Source: Aquibaculum arenosum (GTDB lineage: Bacteria > Pseudomonadota > Alphaproteobacteria > Kiloniellales > DSM-21159). Taken from it: a stretch of 64,000 nt of DNA. Location: the NCBI RefSeq assembly GCF_029222965.1, contig NZ_JARHUD010000001.1:62001-126000 (forward strand), in the 5' to 3' direction. Positions 5,734 through 32,471 of the stretch are shown here, piece after piece. The notes beneath the pieces were generated by a model. That model saw nothing but the letters and a program-made list of their open reading frames with translations. It had not been told where the DNA came from and did no database searches. Made by a program: the position numbers and the translations under genes. Within the stretch, counting starts at the first letter, position 1, and every line of letters starts with the position of its first letter.

Positions 5734-7560
5734 ATGTGCGGCATCATCGGCATTCTCGGCACCAATCCCGTGGCACCGCTGCTGCTCGAAGCGCTCAAGC
5801 GGCTCGAGTATCGCGGCTATGATTCCGCCGGCGTGGCCAGCCTGGTCAATGGCACCATCGAGCGTCGCCGGGCCGAGGGCAAGATCGTGCGCTTGGTGGA
5901 GCGGGTGGAGCGCGAGCCCCTGGGCGGCGTGGTCGGAATCGGCCACACCCGCTGGGCGACCCACGGCCGGCCCAATGAGGTCAATGCCCATCCGCATGCC
6001 AACGAGCGGCTGGCGCTGGTGCACAACGGCATCATCGAGAACCACCGCGAACTGCGCAGTGAGCTGGAGGCCGCGGGCTACGGCTTCGAGACCGAGACCG
6101 ACACGGAAACCGTGGTCCATCTGGTCGACCGCAATCTCAAACAGGGCCTGGCGCCGGCTCAAGCGGTGAGTCGCGCGCTGCAGCGGCTGGAGGGCGCCTT
6201 TGCCTTCGCCATGATCTTTGCCGGCCATCACAACCTGATGATCGGGGCACGGCGCGGCAGCCCCTTGGCGGTGGGATACGGCGACGAAGGCGCGCTCTAT
6301 CTCGGCTCTGACGCCCTGGCCCTGGCGCCGCTGACCGATCGCATCTGCTACCTGGAGGAAGGGGATTGGGTCGTCTTGCAGGACGGCAAGGCCGAGATTT
6401 TCGATGCCGAAGACCGACCGGTGGACCGCCCGATCGTGCGCACGGCTCTGTCGGGTGCGGCCATTGGCAAGGGCAACTTCCGCCACTTCATGCAGAAGGA
6501 AATCCACGAGCAGCCGGCTGTGATCGGCGACACGCTGCACAGCTACGTGAATCTGCAAACCCGCGCCGTCACCCTCCCGGAGATGCCGCTGGACTTCGCC
6601 GCCCTGCCACGATTGACCATCTCCGCCTGCGGCACGGCTTTCTATGCCGGCTTCGTGGCTAAGTATTGGTTCGAGCAGATCGCCCGCCTGCCGGTGGAGG
6701 TCGACATCGCCAGCGAGTTCCGCTATCGCGAGGCCCCCATGCCCGAGGGCGGGGCTGCGCTCTTCATCTCCCAGTCCGGCGAGACCATCGATACCCTGGC
6801 CGCGCTTCGCTATGCCCGCAGTCAGAAACAGACCATCCTCTCCATCGTCAATCAGCCGGAAAGCGTGATCGGGCGGGAATCCGACCTGGTGCTGCCGACC
6901 CTGGCGGGGCCGGAGATCGGGGTGGCCTCCACCAAGGCCTTCACCACCCAGCTCACCGTCCTGGCCTGCCTGGCGCTGGCGGCGGCGCGGGCGCGCGGGG
7001 CCATCGACGCGGCCGCCGAGGCCTGCCTGAGCTCGGCCATCACCGAGGTGCCGGCGGCGATCACTCAGGTGCTGGAGCATGCCGAGCCACTGGAAGCCAT
7101 CGCCCATGACATTTCGGCCGTGCGCGACGTGCTGTTCCTGGGCCGCGGATCGCTCTTCCCCATCGCCCTGGAAGGGGCGCTGAAGCTGAAGGAGATCAGC
7201 TACATCCACGCGGAAGGCTACGCCGCCGGCGAGCTGAAGCACGGGCCGATTGCCCTGATCGATGAGGATGTGCCGGTGGTGATCGCCGCACCCTCCGGCC
7301 CGCTGTTCGACAAGCTGGCCAGCAATATCCAGGAGACGATTGCCCGCGGTGGCCGGGCGATCATCTTCAGCGATCGCGCCGGGTTGGAGCGGATCGGCGA
7401 TGGCGCGGCCTACACCGTGGAGATGCCCACGATAGACCCCTTCGTGGCCCCGATCCTCTACTCCCTGCCCATGCAGCTCCTGGCCTACTACACCGCTGTG
7501 GCCAAGGGCACCGACGTGGATCAGCCGCGCAACCTGGCGAAGTCGGTCACGGTGGAGTAG
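5734..7560 (+). CDS. glmS: glutamine-fructose-6-phosphate aminotransferase (isomerizing)
   Basis: The 608-residue enzyme converts fructose-6-phosphate and glutamine to glucosamine-6-phosphate, the entry step of amino-sugar synthesis. The start at 5734 yields MCGIIGILG, so Cys2 becomes the N-terminal nucleophile after Met removal. The glutaminase domain has HTRWATHG and HPHAN. Two SIS sugar-isomerase domains follow, with SQSGET and STKAFTTQ, and the C-terminus LAKSVTVE is the typical family ending. The length equals E. coli GlmS (609). It lies 7 bp after glmU. No glmS ribozyme or other leader is visible in this short gap. Confidence 0.98.
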   Translation: MCGIIGILGTNPVAPLLLEALKRLEYRGYDSAGVASLVNGTIERRRAEGKIVRLVERVEREPLGGVVGIGHTRWATHGRPNEVNAHPHANERLALVHNGIIENHRELRSELEAAGYGFETETDTETVVHLVDRNLKQGLAPAQAVSRALQRLEGAFAFAMIFAGHHNLMIGARRGSPLAVGYGDEGALYLGSDALALAPLTDRICYLEEGDWVVLQDGKAEIFDAEDRPVDRPIVRTALSGAAIGKGNFRHFMQKEIHEQPAVIGDTLHSYVNLQTRAVTLPEMPLDFAALPRLTISACGTAFYAGFVAKYWFEQIARLPVEVDIASEFRYREAPMPEGGAALFISQSGETIDTLAALRYARSQKQTILSIVNQPESVIGRESDLVLPTLAGPEIGVASTKAFTTQLTVLACLALAAARARGAIDAAAEACLSSAITEVPAAITQVLEHAEPLEAIAHDISAVRDVLFLGRGSLFPIALEGALKLKEISYIHAEGYAAGELKHGPIALIDEDVPVVIAAPSGPLFDKLASNIQETIARGGRAIIFSDRAGLERIGDGAAYTVEMPTIDPFVAPILYSLPMQLLAYYTAVAKGTDVDQPRNLAKSVTVE

Positions 7561-7574
7561 CGCCGAAGCGCTTT

Positions 7575-9284
7575 TCAGTCCGGTCCTTCGCCCCCACCGG
7601 GGCGGGCCTGGGCGATGGCGCGGGAGAGCAGCAGCACCGGGATCAGGCCGACGGCCACGATCATCAGCGCCGGGGTGGCGGCCGCGCCCAGCCGTTCGTC
7701 GGCAGCGTAGTTGTGCGCCTGGACAGCCAGGGTGTCGAAGTCGAAGGGCCGCATGATGAGCGTGGCGGGCAGTTCTTTCATCACGTCGACGAAGACCAGC
7801 AGCCCGGCGGTCAGCAGCGAACTCCAGAGCAGCGGCGCGTGTACTGCCACCAGCGTCCCCGAGGGGCCGCGCCCCAGGGTGCGTGCTGCGTCGTCCATGG
7901 AGCCGCGCACCTTGGCCAACCCGGCCTCCACCGCTTGCAGGGAGACGGCCAAAAAGCGCACCAGATAAGCGAAGACCAGGGCGGCGATCCCGCCGGTGAG
8001 CAGGAGGCCGGAGGAGATGCCGAGGCTGTCCCGCAGCCAGGCGTCCAGGCTGTTGTCAAACCAGGCGAAGGGAATGAGGATGCCGACACCGATGACCGAA
8101 CCGGGCACGGCATAGCCCAGGCTCGCCACGCGGCTGGCGAAGGTAGTGAGCGGTCCCGGCTGCAGGCGCGCGCCATAGGCGACCAGGATAGCGAAGCCGA
8201 CTGCCAGAACCGCGGTCACGGCGCCCAGGATGAAGGTATTGAAAGCCTGGGGCAGGAAGCGGCCAACGTCGATGCCATTGTCGAGGCCCATGGAGACAAG
8301 CACGGCGGCGGGCAGCAGGAAGCCGAGGACGACCGGCAGGGCACAGATCAGGGTGCTCAGCCAGCGAGCGGTACCGCCCAGGCGCGGCTGTGGCAGGTGG
8401 CGGTAGCGAACTGAGGTGTGGTGGTAGCGTTGCGCCCCCCGGTTCCAGCGCTCCAACAGCAGGAAGAGCAGCACGATGCCGAGCAGCATGGCCGAGAGTT
8501 GGGCTGCCGTTGTGTGGTCATAGAGCGAGAACCAGGCCCGATAGATGCCGGTGGTGAAAGTCTGGACCCCGAAGTACTGCACGGTGCCGTAGTCGGCGAG
8601 CGTCTCCATCAGCGCCAGCACTGTCCCGGCGACGATGGCCGGCCGGGCCAGAGGCACGCCCACGCGCAGAAAGGTGCTCCATCCGTTGCAGCCCAGCGTG
8701 CGACTGACTTCGAGAGCGCAGACCGATTGCTGCAGGAAGGCGGCGCGGGAGAGCAGGTAGACATAGGGGTAGAGCACCAGCATCAGCATGATGCCGGCGC
8801 CCTCAACCGAGCGGATATTCGGAAACCAGTAGTCCCGCGGCGTCTGCCAGCCGAAGAGATCGCGCAGTCCGCTTTGCACCGGTCCGCTGAACTGCAGGAA
8901 ATCGGTGTAGGCATAGGCCATAACGTAGGCCGGCACCGCCAGCGGCAGGATCAGCGCCCATTGCAGGATGCAGCGGCCGGGGAAACTGTACATGGTCACG
9001 AGCCAGGCCGTGCCGACGCCGATGAGCATCACGCCGCTACCAACCACCGCAACGAGGATCAGCGTGTTGACCAGATAGCGTGGCAGCACCGTGGAGGCGA
9101 GGTGCGCCATGACGTCACTGCTGGGCTGAACGACATTCCAGGCAATGGTCAGCACCGGGATCGAGAGCAGTAGGGCTACCAGGAGTGCAAGGAGCGTCAG
9201 GAGGCCCAGTCTCCGGGAACGCCGTATGGCCGCGGGGCGCGGAGGCGTGGCATCGATCCCGAGCGTGTCGGTGAGTTGGCTCAT
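7575..9284 (-). CDS. Fe(III)-type ABC transporter permease (FbpB/SfuB family)
   Basis: The 569-residue inner-membrane protein contains two consecutive binding-protein-dependent permease domains, each with about six membrane segments. This two-in-one form is characteristic of ferric iron permeases. EAA-loop-like segments are seen near VSRTLGCNGWSTFLRVGVPLARPA and AARTLGRGPSGTLVAVHAPL, where the ATPase would dock. The opening region IPVLTIAWNVVQPSSD also resembles the family. No periplasmic iron-binding protein or ATPase gene lies nearby, so the partners must be encoded elsewhere. It converges on glmS (15-bp gap). Thiamine and phosphonate permeases share the fold, so Fe(III) is inferred from overall resemblance. 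Confidence 0.85.
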   Translation of the reverse strand: MSQLTDTLGIDATPPRPAAIRRSRRLGLLTLLALLVALLLSIPVLTIAWNVVQPSSDVMAHLASTVLPRYLVNTLILVAVVGSGVMLIGVGTAWLVTMYSFPGRCILQWALILPLAVPAYVMAYAYTDFLQFSGPVQSGLRDLFGWQTPRDYWFPNIRSVEGAGIMLMLVLYPYVYLLSRAAFLQQSVCALEVSRTLGCNGWSTFLRVGVPLARPAIVAGTVLALMETLADYGTVQYFGVQTFTTGIYRAWFSLYDHTTAAQLSAMLLGIVLLFLLLERWNRGAQRYHHTSVRYRHLPQPRLGGTARWLSTLICALPVVLGFLLPAAVLVSMGLDNGIDVGRFLPQAFNTFILGAVTAVLAVGFAILVAYGARLQPGPLTTFASRVASLGYAVPGSVIGVGILIPFAWFDNSLDAWLRDSLGISSGLLLTGGIAALVFAYLVRFLAVSLQAVEAGLAKVRGSMDDAARTLGRGPSGTLVAVHAPLLWSSLLTAGLLVFVDVMKELPATLIMRPFDFDTLAVQAHNYAADERLGAAATPALMIVAVGLIPVLLLSRAIAQARPGGGEGPD

Positions 9285-24256: not shown

Positions 24257-24376
24257 CCGTCATAGGAAGACCCATTTCGAACACGGCGCGAAGAGGGATG
24301 CGTAGCTCCCGGTCTGCGTAAACTCACTGAGAGCCACGGCTCGATCGAGTGAGACAGCAGTCAAGGGAGCCCTAGC

Positions 24377-24724
24377 ATGTCCGACAAGAACGACGCGCCG
24401 AAATCCACGCAACAAACACGCCGCCAACTCCTGCAACGCCTGGGCCTGGGCGCCGCAGCCGCCGGCCTGGCCTATGCCAGCCCGGTACTGCTGGACCTCA
24501 ACGAGGCGAGTGCGTCTCGCGGAAGCTGGGGAAGCCGGGGCAGTTGGGGCAGCCGCCACCGTCGTGGCAGCCATGGCTCACGCGGGCGCGGTCGCCGGCA
24601 CCCGGTCTTCGGCCATCATCCCGGCAAGGGACCGCCGCGCCGGCCACGCCGTGCCGAACGCCGTCGTCGTTCCCGCGATCTCACCGATTGGCAGCTCTGG
24701 ATCGGCCTCGACGGTAAGCTGTGA
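24377..24724 (+). CDS. small basic Ser/Gly/Arg-rich protein with Tat-like signal
   Basis: The 115-residue product does not match a family I recognise. Its N-terminus resembles a twin-arginine signal: TRRQLLQ at 14-20 followed by a hydrophobic stretch LGLGAAAAGLAYASPVLL. Residues 47-72 consist of short repeats of SRG, SWG and SRH type (GSWGSR twice), and the rest is strongly basic (residues 86-100 are mostly Arg), ending in a short DLTDWQLWIG tail. GGGAG lies upstream of the ATG. Its stop overlaps the GTG of the HprK-like/PqqD-like gene (GTGA), so the two are translationally coupled. It may be the substrate or precursor of that enzyme. That role is inference. Confidence 0.7.
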   Translation: MSDKNDAPKSTQQTRRQLLQRLGLGAAAAGLAYASPVLLDLNEASASRGSWGSRGSWGSRHRRGSHGSRGRGRRHPVFGHHPGKGPPRRPRRAERRRRSRDLTDWQLWIGLDGKL

Positions 24725-25926
24725 GTGACAAGCTGATCGCCTTCGAGGGCCTGGCGGGGCCGGTTGCCTTCGAAGGGGCCGGCCCCGTGCTATACGAACT
24801 GGAGGGCGTGCTTCGCGGCTGGCCACGCTGGCCTGTAGCTGCGGCGGGAGCAGCATCGGAGCCAATGATCTCCGTCGACCGCTGTCGTGGGGGCTACGCG
24901 ATCTCGGTTTCCTGGCGCAATGACGGTTACGTTGAGCCGACGCCGGTGAGCGCGCTCTGCAGCCTGGTGGTGGATCTGGTGGAGGCCTATGTGCGCTCCG
25001 AGCCGGGGCGTTTGTGCCTGCACTGCGCCGCGGTCAAGGTCGACGGCCGGCTTCTGGTCTTTCCCGCTGCCAGTCGTGCCGGCAAATCCACGCTGACGGC
25101 GCGCCTGGCAGCGGCCGGCCGGCAGGCTTTCACTGACGATCTGCTCGCCCTCGACCTATACAATGGCAAAGGCATGGCTTTCGGCGTGCCGCCTCGACTT
25201 CGTCGGCCCTTGCCGCCGGGCCTGGACCCCGCCTTCACGGCCTTCATCGAAGAGCATGCGGGACCGAAGGACGCCTACTATGCCTACCTCGATCTGCCGC
25301 CCGACCGACAGGCGCACTTTGGCACCGTGGCACCTCTGGGAGCTGTGGTTCTGCTCGAGCGCGATCCGGGGGTCCTGCAAGCGCGCCTGGAGCCAGCGGA
25401 ACCGGCACATGCGCTCCGCCTGCTGCTGGGCCAGAGTCTGACCATACAAGGCTGCGGCTCGCGCCTGCTGGAAGACTTGCATGATCTTCTCGCAGCCCGC
25501 CCCTGCCTGACCTTGCATTACAGCGATCTCGAGCAGGCTGTTGCGCTCTTGCAAGACGGCCAGGCGTTCTCTGAACAAGCGGCCCGCCTGGCCGCTTCGC
25601 CGATCGAACTCAGAGCAGTGGAGCAGCCGATCGAACCGCTTGCCCCCAGCTCTGAGCGCAGCCGACGCTTCCAACAGAAACCCGGCGTGCGGGGCAGGGC
25701 GGTGGGAGAGCACCTCTTCCTCACGGAGCCGGACAGCGGCGACCTTTGCGAGTTGAACCTGTTGGGCGCCGGCGTCTGGAACCTGCTTGCCGAACCGCAC
25801 AGTCTGGAAGAGGTGACGGCCGTGTTGGTGGAGGTCTTTGAGGACGCTGCGCCGCCCACCATCGTCGCCGACACCCGGCGCCTGTTGTCAGATTTGGAAC
25901 AACGCGGCCTGATCCAACCGTGCTGA
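24721..25926 (+). CDS. HPr-kinase-related protein fused to a PqqD-like domain
   Basis: The 401-residue protein has an HprK-type kinase core. His101 precedes the Walker A segment AASRAGKST (116-124) and is followed by FTDDLL (Asp139/Asp140), matching the order HG...GDSGIGKS...ADD of HPr kinase/phosphorylase. The C-terminal segment (about 325-401: AVGEHLFLTEPDSGDLCELN, ending LEQRGLIQPC) looks like a PqqD-type peptide-binding winged helix. TIGRFAM names an HPr-rel-A system with separate HprK-related and PqqD-related members, as I recall; here they would be one polypeptide. The start is GTG overlapping the peptide gene stop. No HPr or PTS gene is nearby, so the classical HprK role is unlikely. 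Confidence 0.75.
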   Translation: MSDKLIAFEGLAGPVAFEGAGPVLYELEGVLRGWPRWPVAAAGAASEPMISVDRCRGGYAISVSWRNDGYVEPTPVSALCSLVVDLVEAYVRSEPGRLCLHCAAVKVDGRLLVFPAASRAGKSTLTARLAAAGRQAFTDDLLALDLYNGKGMAFGVPPRLRRPLPPGLDPAFTAFIEEHAGPKDAYYAYLDLPPDRQAHFGTVAPLGAVVLLERDPGVLQARLEPAEPAHALRLLLGQSLTIQGCGSRLLEDLHDLLAARPCLTLHYSDLEQAVALLQDGQAFSEQAARLAASPIELRAVEQPIEPLAPSSERSRRFQQKPGVRGRAVGEHLFLTEPDSGDLCELNLLGAGVWNLLAEPHSLEEVTAVLVEVFEDAAPPTIVADTRRLLSDLEQRGLIQPC

Positions 25927-31559: not shown

Positions 31560-32471
31560 TTACGCCGCCTGGCGGGCGCTGCGCTCCATGACCTCGAAGG
31601 CATCGTGGCGGACGTGATTGGCAGCCATTTCGGCTCGCAGGAAGTCCTCCGTGACCGTGCCGTTGTCCAAGCACTCACGCAGCAGGCCGAAGAAGAAAGC
31701 CTCCTGCCGCGGGTCGGGATGGGGCTTGTAGCGTTGCGGGCTTGCCGGCAGGCCCAGAAGGTCGCTGCGGATGAAGCGCAGCCAGGATTTCGGCTGGACC
31801 AGCTTCAGGCGCTTGCTGGCCGGCACAAAGTCGACGGGCAGACCGGTCTTCCAGGGTTGGGTCTGGCGCTTGGTGTTGTGCAGCAGCCGCGTCTGGTCAC
31901 TCAGGCGGTCGAAGTCGTTCCAATGGTCCTCGAACAGCCCGAGGGTTTCGCGCGGCTCGAGCTTGAGGCAGATCCAGTCCATGTAGTCGCGCTCGAAGCG
32001 GAACAGCTCCTCGAAGGCCTCTTCCACCCGCCAATGGGTGAGCTTGGCACAGTCGAGCAGCATGACTGAGGAGGCCAAACAGCCGCCCAATCCCTTGGCG
32101 CCCGCGCGGGGACGGCAGAAGATGGCCTTGCCCTCCATGTCACGGTCCAGGAGCTCCCAGATGTCGCCGACGGCAAAAATATCCGGGTCGATCACCACGG
32201 CGCGCCCTTCGTAGCCCATCAGCTGCGGTGGCAGGAAGCGAAGGGGTGTGAAGGACTGCAGATCCTCCATGTGCCAGACCCGCTTGCCCCCGTCGCGCAG
32301 AAACTCCTGCCCTTCCTTGGCGGCCAGAAAGGGATGGTCCGCCGTGTCGATGATGCGCACGTCGAAGGCATCGGGATTGCGCGAGTTGCGCTTGAGCGAT
32401 TGCTGCGAGACGAGCGCGCCCAGCATCTGCTTGTGATTGGTGTGGATGAAGACGGTGGGTCTTGCAGTCAC
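31560..32471 (-). CDS. glycosyltransferase family 8-like protein
   Basis: The 303-residue protein resembles GT8-type transferases. A Rossmann-like opening (TVFIHTNHKQMLGA) leads to the DxD-like metal site VVIDPDIFAVGD near residue 95, and a later HNTKRQTQPWKTG segment resembles the C-terminal His/Lys/Trp motif of GT8. It would transfer a sugar from a nucleotide donor, but the acceptor is unknown. It has no signal peptide or membrane segment. It is a single-gene unit with its own terminator, divergent from an OmpR-type regulator across a region with phased repeats. No polysaccharide cluster is nearby. Confidence 0.65.
   Translation of the reverse strand: MTARPTVFIHTNHKQMLGALVSQQSLKRNSRNPDAFDVRIIDTADHPFLAAKEGQEFLRDGGKRVWHMEDLQSFTPLRFLPPQLMGYEGRAVVIDPDIFAVGDIWELLDRDMEGKAIFCRPRAGAKGLGGCLASSVMLLDCAKLTHWRVEEAFEELFRFERDYMDWICLKLEPRETLGLFEDHWNDFDRLSDQTRLLHNTKRQTQPWKTGLPVDFVPASKRLKLVQPKSWLRFIRSDLLGLPASPQRYKPHPDPRQEAFFFGLLRECLDNGTVTEDFLRAEMAANHVRHDAFEVMERSARQAA

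Follow-up and report, generated by a model that had tools for sequence, protein, structure and literature searches.

A putative two-gene system for a secreted phosphopeptide in Aquibaculum arenosum and other Proteobacteria

Described phosphopeptide systems and the Aquibaculum locus

Linear polyphosphorylated peptides (LPPs) of Bacillota, described by Popov et al. in May 2026 (PMC13381572), are formed by a system that combines leader recognition with Ser phosphorylation. According to the sections of that paper used here, discrete lasso RREs recognize the sequence [Y/W]xxPx[L/V/I/F/A] and LPP leaders contain YxxPxV; D70 of LppB bonds to the leader Tyr, and N33 is also important for binding. LppK phosphorylates one core Ser, Ser3, which by our own count from the paper's numbering is found 18 residues after Tyr-16 of LppA. 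The same sections describe an SpI-like leader peptidase (LppS), an MsbA-like exporter (LppD) and an NTP transferase (LppN); the latter was inactive in the test host, where the authors suspect that a partner was missing, and they regard LPP as restricted to Bacillota. In phosphorylated lasso peptides (paeninodin, pseudomycoidin), a precursor Ser is modified by an HPr-kinase homologue that is accompanied by a B1/PqqD-type RRE, the phosphorylated residue being the C-terminal Ser in the part of the source considered (PMC8498205). An HprK-related kinase with a PqqD-like partner is found also in the HPr-rel-A system (TIGR04352).

The window, i.e., the whole 64,000-nucleotide stretch of DNA that was analyzed (A. 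arenosum contig NZ_JARHUD010000001.1, positions 62,001 to 126,000), contains a pair of genes that encode a small, precursor-like protein and an enzyme in which an HprK-like kinase is fused to an RRE domain. The features of the small gene are the following, in window coordinates:

24363–24369, + strand: AAGGGAG, likely the ribosome-binding site for the precursor gene, read from the sequence
24377–24724, + strand: ORF, including its stop codon, for a small precursor-like protein of 115 aa; kept in relatives
24377–24514, + strand: predicted leader, i.e., Tat-like signal peptide, residues 1–46 (TIGR01409 above cut-off; leader alignments)
24419–24424, + strand: twin arginine R15-R16, invariant in 25/25 aligned precursors
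24473–24490, + strand: YxxPxL motif Y33-A-S-P36-V-L38, to which the RRE is predicted to bind; 25/25 precursors have the Y and the P
24506–24514, + strand: AxA sequence A44-S45-A46, predicted signal-peptidase site; A44 and A46 invariant in 25/25
24515–24721, + strand: predicted core, residues 47–115, basic, with SRGSWGSRGSWGSR repeats (from the sequence)
24677–24721, + strand: C-terminal segment with W108, retained in the three closest relatives

The 115-aa protein is basic and its Ser/Gly/Arg-rich tail contains many SRG, SWG and SRH units. The Tat signal model of NCBIfam, TIGR01409, matches it at 20.2 bits (cut-off 16.7), cleavage is predicted to occur after A46 on the basis of the AxA sequence, and the gene overlaps that of the kinase by four bases, GTGA, which hold the stop codon of the former and the GTG start of the latter. 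The two ORFs, their overlap, the twin-arginine-type signal and the SRG/SWG/SRH tail had been noted in the initial annotation and were confirmed here. Beyond that annotation, a YxxPx[LIV] motif was identified within the predicted signal peptide, in its hydrophobic part, and the leader was found to be conserved and the tail variable.

Two NCBIfam assignments of the precursor were considered and rejected, i.e., the His-Xaa-Ser (HxsA4) family (23.7 bits, far under the cut-off of 55) and a formate-dehydrogenase-region Tat family (24.9 bits, far under 48.45). No Pfam family at E ≤ 0.01 matches any of the 25 precursors that were aligned, and no NCBIfam family matches more than two of the 25.

The 12 neighboring ORFs, at 17.9–32.5 kb of the window, encode an FAA hydrolase, dehydrogenases, an altronate dehydratase, a nitrilase-type enzyme, parts of a TRAP transporter and a GntR regulator, and include one ORF without a match; there is no peptidase, RiPP exporter or NTP transferase among them. 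A 303-aa ORF at 31563–32471 is without a Pfam match at E 0.001.

The kinase–RRE fusion enzyme

The features of the second gene are:

24721–25926, + strand: 401-aa fusion of an HprK-like kinase and a PqqD/RRE domain, with a GTG start (ORF, profiles, model)
25021–25023, + strand: H101, invariant in 44/44 kinases
25066–25092, + strand: P-loop region, residues 116–124 (AASRAGKST); G121, K122 and S123 in 44/44
25135–25140, + strand: D139-D140 pair; D139 in 44/44, D140 in 42/44
25663–25923, + strand: PqqD-like RRE domain, residues 315–401 (Pfam PqqD; TbiB1–leader complex, Z 14.1)

In the alignment, R161 and R214 are, like H101, G121-K122-S123 and D139, identical in all 44 kinases. We take H101 to be the HprK-type His and the D139-D140 pair to resemble the Asp pair of HprK. 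The first Gly of the P-loop, present in 24/44 kinases, is absent in the window protein (A116).

Pfam identifies a PqqD domain at residues 335–398 (E 8e-10, 39.3 bits, cut-off 23.4) and does not name an HprK domain on the enzyme at E ≤ 1. A profile of the 44 kinase rows finds the solved HPr kinases 1ko7 (4e-7), 1jb1 (1e-6) and 3tqf (3e-5), and at E ≤ 0.001 HprK_rel_A matches 42/44 kinases and TIGR00679 (HPr(Ser) kinase/phosphatase) 14/44. An AlphaFold2 model of the enzyme, calculated from a four-sequence input (mean pLDDT 76.4, pTM 0.74), displays two domains. The kinase part (residues ~95–290) is matched by the HprK/P structures 3tqf (Z 10.1), 2qmh (Z 9.9) and 1ko7 (Z 9.8); in Foldseek, PEP carboxykinases (PEPCK) rank above HprK for this part, the two being related folds. 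The RRE part (residues 315–401) matches the TbiB1–leader complex 5v1v with Z 14.1 over 86 residues at 1.8 Å and TfuB1 (6jx3), a lasso RRE solved with leader peptide, with Z 12.6, where some unrelated winged-helix chains reach Z 10–11; by sequence, it matches TbiB1 (4e-12) and LppB (6e-7). The model makes it likely that the enzyme core has an HprK-like fold and the RRE part a winged-helix, PqqD-like fold. An HprK-like core with a PqqD-like C terminus had been proposed for this gene, and the Pfam match, the profile matches (4e-7 to 3e-5) and the structure search, in which the kinase core matches HprK structures at Z 9–10, bear out that proposal.

The window residue D384 occupies the place of LppB D70. 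Asp is found at this place in 30 of 31 RRE rows, which at the N33 place have D (18 rows), N (12) or E (1); the alignment omits the RREs of G275 and G145, the other copies of G024, the PqqD-only genes of G001 and G003, Oceanibaculum, four RREs of G156, G264, G353 and G430, near-copies in G006, G030 and G032, and five RREs of carriers added later (G and L denote genomes and loci, respectively). The Asp at the D70 place fits an LPP-type interface, whereas the mixed N33 place argues against a simple copy of it.

Compared with LPP, as described in the parts of the paper considered, the window system has in common an HprK-like kinase and a PqqD-type RRE with a Tyr-binding Asp (D384 in the window), a leader with YxxPx[LV], a conserved N terminus and variable C terminus of the precursor, and the absence of a cyclase; the LPP leader is cut by a signal-peptidase-like enzyme and a signal-peptidase site is predicted here. 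In contrast to LPP, the window system has a Tat-like leader and a kinase fused to its RRE, and is found in Proteobacteria. It shares only YxxPx[LIV] with the LPP motif YxxPxVLxHQxIxFETxxS, i.e., without HQxIxFETxxS, and LppS, LppD and LppN are without counterpart among the 12 neighbors. Because the LPP-specific half of the leader, the peptidase, the exporter and the NTP transferase were not found, the system is not assigned to LPP; by analogy, it may work like the LPP core, and LPP is a described relative in kind. The characterization of this system as undescribed thus stands for the proteobacterial form, of which no account was found in the open-access library searched, but not for the general type, since LPP was described in 2026. 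Neither the macrolactam cyclase C nor the B2 peptidase of lasso systems is encoded among the 12 neighbors of the window pair.

The HPr-rel-A model TIGR04352 finds the enzyme with E 1e-12, yet at 47.6 bits, where the cut-off is 200; two split relatives score 53 and 29.5 bits. True HPr-rel-A kinases are found in the same bacterial family, in G007 (335.7 bits) and G008 (335.5 bits), beside a gene for a Tat-type protein, and in the kinase tree the window-type kinases are separated from two true HPr-rel-A members by long branches. Judged from these scores and the tree, the window system is not HPr-rel-A. The HPr-rel-A loci L022 (5825–9011) and L023 (6925–8974), of G007 and G008, are composed of genes for a 227–239 aa Tat-type protein, which might be the target of the HPr-rel-A system, for a small protein with a sub-threshold match to PqqD_rel_X (17.5 of 35 bits) and for the kinase. 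The next gene in L022 (367 aa) lacks an NCBIfam match and reads like a nucleotidyltransferase.

Genomic distribution of the gene pair

The full fusion was found in four of 12 genomes of the family and in all four the small gene is located directly upstream; Oceanibaculum pacificum has the same gene pair. Outside the family, G030–G032, G375, G286, G075 and G739 have a fusion with an adjacent precursor gene, as do G480, G512, G725 and G798 of another class of the phylum. The small gene is, as the initial annotation required, conserved beside homologous kinase genes in the relatives examined.

The association was quantified in three samples, using E-value limits for leader and kinase that were chosen after the lists had been seen. 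Among 385 genomes of the class, in each of which the best four kinase and 19 leader candidates at most were scored, such that genes may be missed, the kinase (E ≤ 1e-25) is found in 31 and the leader (E ≤ 1e-9) in 31/31 of these, compared with 3/354 of the others (Fisher 1e-42, uncorrected for kinship and hence inflated); 15 families are represented. The best leader score per genome drops from 7e-10 to 2.5e-4 in this sample, with nothing between. The three further genomes with a leader are G145, where it is accompanied by a weaker kinase (1e-18) and an RRE, and G173 and G432, in which these profiles detect neither kinase nor RRE. The latter two leaders are in L178 (G173:C62) and L169 (G432:C3), and the tail in G432 has one Cys as compared to two in its relative in G355, which looks like decay.

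Within the order (61 genomes), the kinase (E ≤ 1e-18) is found in 11 genomes and the leader (E ≤ 1e-7) in 11/11 of these and in none of the 50 others; the search matched 15 genomes, from which G001 and G003 (PqqD part only) and G007 and G008 (HPr-rel-A) are excluded as non-carriers. G001 and G003, two congeners of G002, each have an RRE gene, and neither kinase nor leader was found in them. Across the phylum (398 genomes, a sample that overlaps that of the class in G000, G002 and other genomes), kinase and leader are found in the same 7/7 genomes, five of which are new, and three more genomes display a weak kinase match near 1e-13 with the leader absent. Many of these genomes carry precursor and kinase as unlinked genes (in G002, for example, 40 kb separate them), and the co-occurrence is therefore not a by-product of neighborhood.

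Where the kinase is split from the RRE, an RRE gene adjoins the kinase gene in 26 of 33 cases; the remaining seven belong to a small-genome genus (four), to G357 (one) and to G076 (two of its three kinases). The RRE gene is found 26–30 kb away in G156, G264 and G353 and on another contig in G430. No RRE was found within 16 kb around the kinase of G357, and its congeners G268 and G434 have one. G076 harbors three kinase-like genes and one RRE, in two loci (L092, L099). In a quick kinase tree (SH-aLRT without bootstrap, rooted on the two true HPr-rel-A members, adjacency labels assigned by hand), a clade with SH-aLRT support of 100 contains 26 rows (16 fused, 10 split), with the precursor gene adjacent in 26/26 and tails that are mostly Ser-Gly-Arg or Ser-Gly rich. 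In 17 of the other 23 rows the precursor is located elsewhere; two of these kinases are at a contig edge, which precludes a judgement on adjacency.

The split kinase or RRE genes in L020, L021, L025, L026 and L067 (of G002, G011, G001, G003 and G434, respectively) immediately follow a gene for a response regulator resembling RegA/ActR, as read from its sequence, which suggests redox or oxygen control of these genes. Unlinked precursors in several families (L166, L167, L169, L170, L172, L178) are found near an rfaE/hldE-like heptose gene, often also with an mmcB-like gene or a TPR protein, i.e., at a stable chromosomal place. Locus L024 of G010 (6974–8125) encodes a reversed fusion with the PqqD-like domain ahead of the HprK-like domain, and in L174 and L175 (G255, G141) tandem precursors reside beside a gene for a protein of 1860 or 1977 aa that reads like an RTX protein.

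Leader, core and proposed mechanism

In the 25 aligned precursors, which are a hand-picked spread, R15, R16, L19, L22, G23, Y33, P36, A44 and A46 are invariant and YxxPx[LIV] is found in 25/25, whereas length, charge and repeats vary among the tails, i.e., the leader is the conserved part. A leader profile of the form RRxxLxxLG...YxxPx[LIV]...AxA gave 68 matches, 63 of which pass a pattern that itself requires Y..P and yield 61 distinct tails; the residue at Y+5 is L, I or V in 61/61. The five matches that do not pass are those of the window and its nearest kin, which have the motif and a longer spacer, and three truncated or shifted frames; five precursors added later stand outside the 61. 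As a control, YxxP was found within 45 residues of RR in 0/30 ordinary Tat signals of five carrier genomes (30 of 82 Tat matches, those with loci). TIGR01409 at E ≤ 0.01 matches only one of the 25 precursors, that of the window, such that by sequence Tat export is less well supported for the family than for the window precursor; TatC is encoded in the window's genome. A paralogue in G030–G032, of one genus, has a separate hydrophobic stretch at its N terminus and the motif further inside the protein, where the would-be signal core contains charged residues (hydropathy 0.06 and −0.07, as compared to 1.25 in an ordinary copy). The motif is kept in this lineage where it could hardly be part of an export signal, which fits a role in recognition.

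The cores provide a hint to the site of modification. A sequence P-[S/T]-x(0-2)-C is found at the core start in 28/61 distinct tails, including three from the small-genome genus, which belongs to the kinase clade with support of 100, and its Ser or Thr is at Y+19 in 19/28 and at Y+17 in 7/28. Among tails with exactly one Ser/Thr after Y+15, this residue belongs to P-[S/T]-x(0-2)-C in 8/9. Ser47, Ser50 and Ser53 of the window precursor are at Y+14, Y+17 and Y+20, respectively. The spacing from Tyr to Ser/Thr is the best hint to the position of a phosphate. The core in L163 (491–970) has no Ser and a single Thr, far from the leader. Tails in the other class (G480, G512, G725, G798) contain repeats such as SRPSYSRP, and in the pooled tails SR/RS dipeptides number 120, compared with 78.7 ± 7.1 after shuffling (maximum 101 in 1000 shuffles). 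This excess was discarded as a hallmark of the system because the G031 and G286 precursors tested have none; likewise, the presence of a Ser/Thr among the first 10 core residues (25/25) was not used, as it is about what composition alone gives. Phosphorylation of the Ser repeats, as initially suggested, is not supported in that form, since the repeats are not conserved, 28/61 cores have P-[S/T]-x(0-2)-C instead and LPP, in the sections considered, is modified at a single Ser.

These observations are probably best explained by a RiPP-like system of two genes, with a secreted phosphopeptide as its product and the precursor's own signal peptide as the leader. By analogy with the LPP and lasso systems, the fusion enzyme would bind the leader through its RRE domain at YxxPx[LIV] within the Tat-like signal, which would bring the core to the tethered HprK-like domain, and the latter would phosphorylate at least one Ser just after the leader, with S47, S50 and S53 as candidates. 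The RR signal of the modified precursor would then direct it to export by Tat, with ordinary signal peptidase cutting at AxA, provided that the RRE-bound signal can still reach Tat. The system would thereby dispense with an exporter and a leader peptidase dedicated to it. Capture of the small protein by the PqqD-like part had been suggested at the outset; the invariant YxxPx[LIV] and the Asp in 30/31 RREs give this suggestion a specific basis, with the binding itself being inferred.

We count in favor of this mechanism the co-occurrence, the motif, the matches to lasso RREs, the HprK core, the LPP chemistry, the Tyr spacing, the G030–G032 paralogue and TatC. Counted against it are the mixed N33 place, A116, the Tat model matching 1/25, the genomes G173/G432, G357 and G076, the L163 core, the rank of PEPCK above HprK in Foldseek and the unrelated winged-helix chains at Z 10–11. 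A broader reading, to which we give somewhat less than even chances, is that of a proteobacterial class of secreted phosphopeptides in which the signal peptide is the RiPP leader, an RRE-tethered HprK reads YxxP within the Tat-like signal and phosphorylates the core, and general export replaces the dedicated peptidase and transporter of LPP and lasso systems; here, some lineages would use Ser-Arg repeats, in parallel with SR proteins, and others P-[S/T]-x-C at a fixed distance.

The RRE-kinase could instead bind the precursor and use phosphate as an intermediate, or perform other ATP-dependent chemistry, such as glycosyl-phosphate or nucleotidyl transfer with distant partners or a kinase/phosphorylase switch. 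The presence of LppN in LPP clusters, albeit inactive in the test host (PMC13381572, in the sections considered), the P-[S/T]-x(0-2)-C tails (28/61), which hint at a further Cys-linked step, and the PEPCK matches ranking above HprK would be consistent with such chemistry, which we nevertheless consider rather unlikely, as the 12 neighboring ORFs contain no NTP transferase and the invariant H, GKS, D and R are in keeping with a phosphotransferase of the HprK type.

An improbable alternative is that the leader is only a Tat signal and that the enzyme is a chaperone or kinase that acts on the signal peptide, delaying export, rather than on the core. RR and AxA are indeed as invariant as Y and P, and the motif is located in the hydrophobic part of the signal; however, no single hydroxyl residue inside the signal is conserved (the highest S+T content is 51% at Y+4, mostly Thr), whereas a fixed-distance hydroxyl follows the signal in 26/28 P-[S/T]-x-C tails and the paralogue retains the motif where a signal role is hardly possible. 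That a low-complexity secreted protein resides beside an unrelated HprK-like gene by chance is very improbable: precursor and kinase are unlinked in 17/23 kinase rows outside the main clade, but in the samples searched every genome counted as having the kinase also has the leader, whatever the linkage, and adjacency is found in all 26 rows of one supported clade (both by hand-assigned labels).

RiPP leaders are usually accompanied by their own peptidase and exporter. If the proposed two-gene mechanism is correct, the use of one sequence as both leader and Tat-like signal would constitute a minimal two-gene design, the kinase–RRE phosphopeptide chemistry would extend from Bacillota to Proteobacteria, and a substrate would be assigned to a large group of HprK-like enzymes that score under the cut-offs of curated models. 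The pairing turns the question of the substrate into one that is directly testable with two proteins and ATP.
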